Origin: Chitinophaga pinensis
GTDB lineage: Bacteria > Bacteroidota > Bacteroidia > 2-12-FULL-35-15
Reading direction: 5' to 3'
Length of the DNA: 55,478 nucleotides
Assembly (NCBI GenBank): GCA_945865315.1
Contig: CAMBDK010000005.1
Location: forward strand, 1-55,478
Notes under the pieces: model-generated
The model's database searches: none
What the model was told of the DNA's origin: nothing
The model's input: only the letters and a program-made list of their open reading frames with translations
Part shown: positions 3,586-6,182 of the stretch, one piece after another
How the letters are laid out: every line of letters starts with the position of its first letter
Numbering within the stretch: position 1 is the first letter of the stretch
Position numbers and translations under genes: made by a program

Positions 3586-3659
3586 GGCGAGGTAGCTCAG
3601 ATGGTTAGAGCACAGGATTCATAACCCTGAGGTCAGGGGTTCAACTCCCCTTTTCGCTA
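3586..3659 (+). tRNA. tRNA-Met (anticodon CAT), no encoded CCA
   Basis: Cloverleaf readable: GGCGAGG TA GCTC..., anticodon arm CAGGATTCATAACCCTG, T-arm AGGGGTTCAACTCCCCT, acceptor TTTCGCT + A (G-U pairs in the acceptor). Confidence 0.93.
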
Positions 3660-3664
3660 CTCCT

Positions 3665-3692
3665 AAAACCCCTGAAATGTCAGGGGTTTTTT
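3665..3692 (+). terminator. Rho-independent terminator of tRNA-Met
   Basis: Perfect 11-bp stem AAAACCCCTGA / TCAGGGGTTTT with AATG loop, followed by T-run. Confidence 0.85.
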
Positions 3693-4102
3693 ATTTTTAA
3701 GGGTTTCGAAAATGCTGAAATTTAGTCTTGGGAGTCGCTTTGGGAGTCGCTTTTATTTCAGTAATTTCACGTTTTTGAGCATGAAAAAAGTTTGAAATGG
3801 GCGCAGAAAATTGCATGTTTTTTTACTTAAAACATTACACTCTTTTGGTATGAAGTTACGATTTGCCGGATTCTCGTTCGAATTAGGTTGAAAACATAAT
3901 TAGCGTATTTATCCAAAAAGGCTGAATAAATACTCCTGCTTATATTGTAGAGATTTTGAGAAAAACGGAATATATGTTATAAATATAATTATCATATTTA
4001 TTAATAAATATTGATAATTGTAATGAAAGGGGGGGGGGGTATTGCATATACCGTTTAAATTGACCACCTTACGGGTTCGTATTTACTGCTTTTTGTTACT
4101 GC

Positions 4103-4262
4103 TGATTTCAAATTGTCGGGCACAACTTAGCGGCTTTACCCGAAGGGAAAGATATTGCCGAAGCTATCAATAACGCCATGAAAATGCTTGAGAGAGCTAT
4201 TTTCTGAAGAAAAATATCAAGATGTCAAAGAACCTATATATAATCAGTTGAAAATGTTCTAA
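4103..4262 (+). pseudogene. Frameshifted coding remnant (possibly N6-DNA-methylase/HsdM-like, tentative)
   Basis: Frame 1: FQIVGHNLAALPEGKDIAEAINNAMKMLERAIF*, continued after a +1 shift by SEEKYQDVKEPIYNQLKMF*. Confidence 0.35.
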
Positions 4263-4323
4263 TTAAGACGCAACGCTAGTGATTTATCATTTAAAAAAAT
4301 CACACAGAATTTAAGCTTTCAAT

Positions 4324-5022
4324 TCAGCTAATTTTATAATTACAAAATGCTGTCAGGATTTCAAGGATTCGATTTTTTCTAAAAATTTGATCAGATTGCT
4401 CTACATTTCCAAGCAAAGCCTCTTCAAATAAATTCTTCTTTAATAAAAAAGAAAATTCCTTTTTAAGATATGCTTTAACTTCATTATCAGCATCCATAAG
4501 TTCTTGTAATACTCCGTCACGATTATCTAAAACAAATATTATGTCCTCTAAATCATGACTTCCTAATAGATCACCCTTTCCGCGTGTTTTAAAAGCCTCC
4601 AGCTTTGAAGCAATAAAATAACTTGAAGAAAATATTCGGATTGATTGTTTATCTGTCAATGAATGTTCTAAAGAATACTTTACTCCATCAACATACCAGC
4701 GATTGCTAAATCCTAAAACAGATGGATCAATAGGCATGAAATCCACTTTTAAATCTTGGTACAAAAAGCGTGAAATAATTGGCGCTGTTGTATCATTTTT
4801 AAAACCTAATTGCAATAATCTTTCCTGCATTTTATAAAAATCTGCTGTTGAAACTAACTCAACAACAACATCTACATCGTCAGTCACTCTAACTGTAACA
4901 GCCAATGGCCTGGATGCATATAAGCTAACTGTTGCCCCTCCAACAAAAACAATTTTCTCTTTCCATTCTTCTAATACTGTCGCAACGGCTCTTAGCCTTA
5001 AAATGTTTGTATGGTGATTCAT
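4324..5022 (-). CDS. Nucleotidyltransferase, AbiEii/MNT-like toxin candidate
   Basis: VGGATVSLY...TDDVDVVVE nucleotidyltransferase core; overlaps upstream HTH gene by 4 nt (ATGA). Confidence 0.7.
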   Translation of the reverse strand: MNHHTNILRLRAVATVLEEWKEKIVFVGGATVSLYASRPLAVTVRVTDDVDVVVELVSTADFYKMQERLLQLGFKNDTTAPIISRFLYQDLKVDFMPIDPSVLGFSNRWYVDGVKYSLEHSLTDKQSIRIFSSSYFIASKLEAFKTRGKGDLLGSHDLEDIIFVLDNRDGVLQELMDADNEVKAYLKKEFSFLLKKNLFEEALLGNVEQSDQIFRKNRILEILTAFCNYKIS

Positions 5023-5543
5023 CCTAATATTCTTTTTTTAAGTTCAATTGCTGCCATTTTTTTTTCTCTCGCTCTTCCAACTCTTAACGCATCTGATAAT
5101 GCAAGTAATTCATATAAATTTTTATCCTCTTTTGCTGCTTTTATTTGTCCGGGGTGAAAAGGTTCTATCTTTTGACCTCGCACTTTCCCTTCTTTAGCAT
5201 CTTGCCAAACAAACAATTCACTATTCTTAAACTCTTTGTTTAAAGGTGGTGCGGAATGGGCAGTAGGAATTCCTGGAACCATAGCTCCCGGTTGTTGCGG
5301 AAAAACAAATGGAAGTCCGTAAATTAAAAAATCATAAATGACTTTTCTCATCGGAGTTTTTTTATCCTCTGCAATTAGTCCCGCCATAGCAGAACGATTA
5401 ATAGACTCGCTTACTTCTGAAGAGCTTATCCCTAGTTGAATACTTAAATCCTTAAGCAGAAAAGGTTCTTTTCCGAAAGATATGATTTTCAATAATATTA
5501 CTATGTCTTGTGGACGCATTCCACTATGTTTTTTCATTTTCAA
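5019..5543 (-). CDS. Winged-helix DNA-binding protein, AbiEi-like/antitoxin candidate
   Basis: N-terminal HTH: FLLKDLSIQLGISSSEVSESINRSAMAGLI; first gene of operon with nucleotidyltransferase. Confidence 0.65.
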   Translation of the reverse strand: MKMKKHSGMRPQDIVILLKIISFGKEPFLLKDLSIQLGISSSEVSESINRSAMAGLIAEDKKTPMRKVIYDFLIYGLPFVFPQQPGAMVPGIPTAHSAPPLNKEFKNSELFVWQDAKEGKVRGQKIEPFHPGQIKAAKEDKNLYELLALSDALRVGRAREKKMAAIELKKRILG

Positions 5544-5558
5544 TTGTTTTATATCTTG

Positions 5559-5575
5559 ATTCGCGATTCGCGAAT
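5559..5575. promoter_or_regulatory. 17-bp perfect palindromic operator ATTCGCGA-T-TCGCGAAT
   Basis: 8-bp arms around 1-nt spacer, between the HTH start codon (5543) and a TATATTTGC -7 box (5583-5591, minus strand). Confidence 0.7.
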
Positions 5576-5841
5576 TGAGAGTGCAAATATAATTCTAATT
5601 TTATAATATCCAAAAAAAACTTACCTTGGATGGAAATTTCACCTGGAAAGTAGTAAAAAAAACATGGTATATTTGAGCAGTTCTTTTAAATCTGAATTTG
5701 AAATTCAAAACTTGTTCAAATTTCTCACTCAAAAAAAGGAGTCGCTTTGGTAGTCGCTTTTTGGCTTATTTTTGTCCTGAAAGTGACTTTTTGGTCATCC
5801 GAAAGCATTGCTTTTGCTGCAAAGTAGCTTTTAAAATACTT

Positions 5842-5935
5842 TTCATAACCCTGAGGTCAGGGGTTCAACTCCCCTTTTCGCTACTCAAAACCGCTGATAT
5901 TCAGGGTTTTTTTATTTTTAAGGGTTTCGAAAATG
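5842..5935 (+). repeat. Duplicated tRNA-Met 3' half plus terminator-like hairpin (att-site-like)
   Basis: TTCATAACCCTGAGGTCAGGGGTTCAACTCCCCTTTTCGCTACTC identical to tRNA-Met 3' part; terminator-like hairpin also duplicated with divergence. Confidence 0.9.
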
Positions 5936-6182
5936 GTCCATTTTGCATTTTGGTGGCATATTTGGTCGCATATTTTTACAAAATTCATGTTTTTTTAATC
6001 ATAAAAAAAGACTCCCAAATGAGCCTTTCTTATCTGTATTTTCTGACGATTTTTTTTGGTATAATAGACAAAAGTAATGGTTTTTTCAACCATTTTTTCT
6101 CCATGTGGACAAAAGTAATGGTGTGTTTTTTGGATAAAAATCTGCTTTGGTGCTACACTTCCATTTACAACAAAATGAAGAA

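Follow-up and report, generated by a model that had tools for sequence, protein, structure and literature searches.

What kind of system do two overlapping genes on the minus strand of this DNA encode, and on what sort of element are they carried? The window analysed here is the whole stretch of 55,478 nucleotides from Chitinophaga pinensis. A first-pass annotation had described a winged helix-turn-helix (wHTH) gene and a nucleotidyltransferase gene overlapping by ATGA, in the order of AbiEi/AbiEii (regulator, then putative toxin), and had suggested a divergent toxin-antitoxin (TA) or defence subtype. The overlap and the gene order are as described: the stop codon of gene A (TGA, 5021–5019) and the start codon of gene B (ATG, 5022–5020) share their bases within 5022–5019. 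The two genes are as follows.

5537–5019, minus strand: gene A, M21A, a wHTH protein of 172 amino acids (PADLOC PDC-M21A, 2.1e-44)
5022–4324, minus strand: gene B, M21B, an AbiEii/MenT-type nucleotidyltransferase of 232 amino acids (PADLOC PDC-M21B, 1.8e-65)

As adjacent genes matching both models, they make the operon, by sequence, a member of PDC-M21, a phage-defence candidate already catalogued as a two-gene system in PADLOC-DB 2.0 and modelled in 2023. Because both proteins match these models, the pair is not a new TA subtype, and that part of the first-pass annotation has to be given up. Our literature search found no papers naming PDC-M21; what is new here relative to the PADLOC entry is the regulatory and mobile-element detail. 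We place the start of gene A at ATG 5537 (MKKHSGMRPQDI) and not at TTG 5543, because most relatives open with M-K/R-x-H-x-G-M-R-P-Q-D. The PADLOC match leaves the first ~22 residues of M21A outside the aligned stretch.

Motifs I–IV of the AbiEii/DUF1814 proteins (hGGx..DhD, KLxAaxxR and +DxxD), each of which is required for AbiEii toxicity (PMC3985639), are all present and conserved in M21B, as GG28-29, R45-x-T47-x-D49-x-D51, K140LEAFKTR147 and D157xxD160, with H156 in motif IV where AbiEii/DUF1814 has a basic K/R. The Pfam AbiEii family (PF08843) gives M21B a score of 18.4 bits, below the gathering score of 22.5; the same family matches 30 of 35 M21B relatives at 0.01, the best at 1.1e-9. Searches of PDB sequences with the single A or B protein gave no match. 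The AlphaFold2 model of M21B has a pLDDT of 94, and a PDB fold search with it ranks MenT1 structures first (E 3e-6, probability 1.0, 16–18% identity), followed by ANT(2'')-Ia (E 1e-3). A profile of M21B aligns the R-x-T-x-D-x-D strand residue for residue with MenT1, so that R45, T47 and D49 fall on R37, T39 and D41, which are active-site residues of MenT1 (PMC10435456, PMC11375011); by motif, K140 and D157 would be the counterparts of MenT K137 and D152. At least 90% of M21B relatives share T47. Catalytic residues are lost in some members, one of which (L047) lacks the DxD. The comparisons support the placement of M21B, as a divergent protein, among the AbiEii/DUF1814/MenT nucleotidyltransferases, and we propose that it acts as a toxin.

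The fold search also raises the alternative that M21B modifies a small molecule or a protein, as ANT(2'')-Ia does, and that M21A is a ligand-responsive repressor only, with no toxin in the system. ANT(2'')-Ia is indeed the next match, and ligand sensing is frequent among MarR/ArsR-like wHTH proteins. However, MenT1 outscores ANT(2'')-Ia, AbiEii motifs III and IV are present in M21B, and the patchy spread (within the genus, 9 of 37 genomes have M21A), mobile context and obligate pairing fit a TA system better, and we regard the alternative as improbable.

M21A gives a confident AlphaFold2 model (pLDDT 95), and its wHTH assignment comes from weak HTH matches in profile searches. A PDB fold search with the model found no match at E 0.001, the weak ones being short wHTH stretches, and none of the AbiEi families in Pfam, NCBIfam and PADLOC was matched. 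By these tests gene A is not AbiEi (COG5340), as had been supposed, and no relation to known antitoxins is detectable by family or fold search. An alignment of 43 M21A members has 14 invariant residues; those in the C-terminal domain are G84, G89, W111, G121, P126, D149, R152, R157 and E158. The region of ~90 residues that had been thought extra is real but is not an insertion: on this alignment it is the second half that M21A proteins regularly have, and the conserved hallmark of their family. We propose that M21A acts as both autorepressor and antitoxin.

The region upstream of gene A contains the following features, identified from the sequence.

5559–5575, strand not applicable: predicted operator, a perfect 8-1-8 palindrome of 17 bp, ATTCGCGA-T-TCGCGAAT, with half-sites conserved in relatives
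5584–5591, minus strand: -7 box TATATTTG (Bacteroidota consensus TAnnTTTG)
5611–5613, minus strand: -33 box TTG, with a 19-nt spacer to the -7 box

The palindrome lies between start codon and -7 box, where the first-pass annotation had put it, and since the -33/-7 promoter precedes it on the minus strand, the predicted operator begins a few bases past the expected transcription start. Taken alone it is only moderately improbable: when its own upstream sequence (110 nt) is shuffled by dinucleotides, 3 of 100 shuffles reach the palindrome score and 1 of 100 the half-site count. The operator is convincing because it is conserved across relatives. In a first set of 42 M21A promoters, the mean best palindrome score is 10.2 versus 5.7 in dinucleotide shuffles, and WYGCRAW half-sites number 2.3 versus 0.5. 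In a second set, at least two half-sites occur in 91% of 80 M21A promoters versus 3.5% of 172 control promoters taken from the same loci (p = 2e-40, a value that is overstated because the half-site was defined with the first set already in view, some genomes belong to both sets, and related loci lack independence). Given the size of the effect, a chance origin is untenable. Some half-sites lie upstream of the -7 box, others between it and the start codon, positions at which a bound protein could block transcription. The idea of an operator extends to the whole family: the comparison supports the assignment of the palindrome at 5559–5575 to a family-wide operator class, and autorepression of the operon by A is strongly predicted.

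Operator sequences seem to diverge along with the M21 family. A proteobacterial M21 promoter (L257, 3880–4000) has no TCGCGA-type sites and carries a TGTCCTcAGtCCTAGGACAGC-like palindrome, and a cyanobacterial one (L256, 3880–4012) shows ATTCGCTATTCGCGAAT.

Of the 395 genomes sampled in the class, 42 have M21A, and M21B is present in 11 of 398 genomes of the phylum. A query with the alignment returned 569 candidate M21 loci in species-representative genomes, unlike a single-protein query of genome contigs, which returned no M21 match. The two genes are closely linked: in 41 of the 43 distinct loci of a first set the next gene downstream of A is B, and B never occurs there without A; in a second, partly overlapping set B directly follows A at 75 of 81 loci. 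Among plasmid records, 121 contain A and 116 contain B, from rhizobia, Pseudomonas, Acinetobacter (one plasmid of 8.2 kb) and cyanobacteria, among others. M21 is present in two viral contigs and was not found in deposited phage records.

On some plasmids a third overlapping gene follows the M21 pair. This is the case on an Agrobacterium plasmid (L257, 4001–6007) and on the Acinetobacter plasmid p6SAAs474 (L259, 2318–4379), where the third gene is annotated as a serine/threonine protein phosphatase, which would be of interest if the M21 toxin is regulated by phosphorylation.

The neighbours of M21 bear on whether the pair is dedicated to phage defence. Here M21A would be sensor and repressor, infection would displace it, and M21B would modify host or phage RNA to abort the infection, without classical addiction. 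Besides the cataloguing of PDC-M21 as a defence candidate, the 147 nearest neighbour genes at 41 loci point this way, in that type I restriction-modification (R-M) models lead the PADLOC matches (three HsdR-like and two HsdS-like) and are absent among the matches listed for 147 control genes. A type I R-M locus encloses the M21 pair in G576, where an hsdS-like and an hsdR-like gene flank it and one large gene also stands between these two; in G051 the pair runs straight into an hsdR-like gene (the names in both genomes come from sequence and from the PADLOC neighbour matches). However, R-M neighbours occur at only a few of the 41 loci, the other neighbours being mostly ordinary genes, and small plasmids with an M21 pair suit addiction. 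The link to defence is real, if modest; carriage on plasmids would suit addiction just as well, and we consider a purely defensive function unlikely.

The operon is flanked by a duplicated part of a tRNA gene, which the first-pass annotation had overlooked, and the features of the surrounding element are these.

3586–3660, plus strand: tRNA-Met (CAT), the insertion site of the element (ARAGORN, Rfam)
3618–3662, plus strand: left att repeat, the 3' half of tRNA-Met (exact 45-bp direct repeat)
3731–3754, plus strand: tandem GGAGTCGCTTT repeats, possible integrase arm sites, left
3755–4323, strand not applicable: left interior, with no recognisable gene (no listed ORF of at least 60 amino acids)
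5659–5841, plus strand: conserved right end, 88% identical in G029, with 77% matches in G004 and G016
5738–5761, plus strand: tandem GGAGTCGCTTT-like repeats, possible integrase arm sites, right
5842–5886, plus strand: right att repeat (exact 45-bp direct repeat)

The 45-bp repeat has just two copies in the whole genome assembly. The element that they delimit (3618–5886, 2.2 kb) has the M21 operon as its sole recognisable cargo, and the paired GGAGTCGCTTT-like repeats inside both ends resemble integrase arm sites. No integrase was found within the 2.2 kb, and none for tRNA-Met among the three tyrosine recombinases of this genome, of which two are ~300 amino acids (Xer-like length) and the third lies on contig C72, in another island. 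In G004 and G016, which have the same kind of element end, a tyrosine integrase points at tRNA-Met. In the relative G029 the counterpart of the right end adjoins an att core and a different M21 operon, in the opposite orientation, whose A and B are 54% and 36% identical to those in the window. On these comparisons we take the element for a decayed copy or else for a mini-element that moves in trans, and this type of tRNA-Met element has apparently captured M21 at least twice.

One could also suppose that element and operon are decaying and non-functional in this genome, given the missing integrase and a left end in which no gene is recognisable over ~560 bp. Against this, the two ORFs are intact, as are the promoter, the perfect palindrome and every catalytic motif, and decay of this kind is very improbable.

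Several further observations were made at and around such sites. G029 holds two M21 operons, one (L098/L012, on C9) at the tRNA-Met att core and the other (L004, on C6) directly 3' of tmRNA, which suggests repeated capture at integration hot spots; at the other tRNA/tmRNA-linked M21 loci (L116 and L127), att duplications were not found within the stretch examined. A further paired repeat, GGTGGCATATTTGGTCGCATATTT, just outside the right att of the window (5945–5975), resembles the arm repeats by att cores in G029 and may be left over from a second element inserted in tandem at this site. A translated stretch on the plus strand at 4079–4206, LAALPEGKDIAEAINNAMKMLERAIF, reads like a gene fragment; an HsdM remnant, suspected by eye, was rejected, as Pfam gave a weak unrelated match and there was no relative among the loci compared. 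The island with the third recombinase (L066, G000:C72:1-16172) has a tyrosine integrase of 416 amino acids with a tmRNA-3'-end-like stretch near it, and genes named by eye as SEFIR/TIR-like, ADP-ribosylglycohydrolase-like and a WYL-like regulator, together with other unknowns.

Sequence comparison establishes the pairing, the nucleotidyltransferase family with its intact motifs, the operator class and the att-flanked element, and on this basis we favour, with a probability of roughly 0.65, a PDC-M21 TA-like module carried by an integrase-less remnant or mini-element at tRNA-Met. The cassette probably combines a DNA-binding antitoxin with an RNA-modifying toxin related to AbiE/MenT, and is most likely an autorepressed TA module with defence or addiction roles. 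M21A would bind the palindrome at the transcription start and repress the operon, while its C-terminal domain would restrain M21B. Loss of A would free M21B, which by analogy with its family may, like MenT toxins, extend tRNA 3' ends with nucleotides and so arrest growth; tRNA as the target is inferred from that analogy. The benefit to the cell or element would be phage defence, retention of the mobile element, or both. A possible extension is antitoxin-induced phosphorylation of T47 in M21B, for which MenT1 and MenT3 provide a precedent (PMC11375011).

A more ambitious proposal, which we put forward tentatively and think doubtful in its entirety, is that M21A is an unprecedented type of antitoxin for MenT/AbiEii-class nucleotidyltransferases (a wHTH with a new C-terminal domain), that it controls its operon at a family-wide TCGCGA-type operator and itself switches the toxin off, possibly by inducing the toxin's self-phosphorylation on T47, and that the pair spreads at tRNA-Met in tiny integrase-less, att-flanked cassettes that related autonomous elements mobilise. 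M21 pairs are common, yet uncharacterised as far as our literature search found, and the analysis yields predictions for them: which sequence serves as operator, which residues are catalytic, which residue may accept a phosphate and what class of substrate is used.

Among known systems, the closest is PDC-M21 itself (PADLOC-DB 2.0), which both proteins match over their full length or nearly so, with the same order and overlap; the PADLOC entry gives no mechanism, operator or element. Integrative elements that target tRNA genes with tyrosine integrases share the duplicated tRNA 3' half, and the ends in common with G004 and G016, but the element in the window is 2.2 kb long, has no integrase and carries one operon as cargo. 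If our reading is true, small defence or addiction cassettes ride this tRNA-Met element.

AbiE, a type IV TA system, is likewise bicistronic, with a regulator followed by a nucleotidyltransferase containing the four motifs, a regulator composed of a wHTH and a C-terminal domain, and inverted repeats in the promoter (PMC3985639, PMC7319586). It differs in that M21A has no AbiEi sequence or fold match, M21B taken singly is under the Pfam AbiEii cut-off, and the predicted M21 operator is a short palindrome in place of paired 23-bp repeats. MenAT1-4 of Mycobacterium tuberculosis, whose toxins are tRNA nucleotidyltransferases, provide the best fold match and the aligned R-x-T-x-D-x-D strand, but M21B is only 16–18% identical, M21A is unrelated to the small MenA1, and a relation to the COG5340-type MenA3 was not detected. 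The MenT toxin family pairs with unrelated antitoxins (PMC10435456), and M21A would, if our reading is true, be one more of these.
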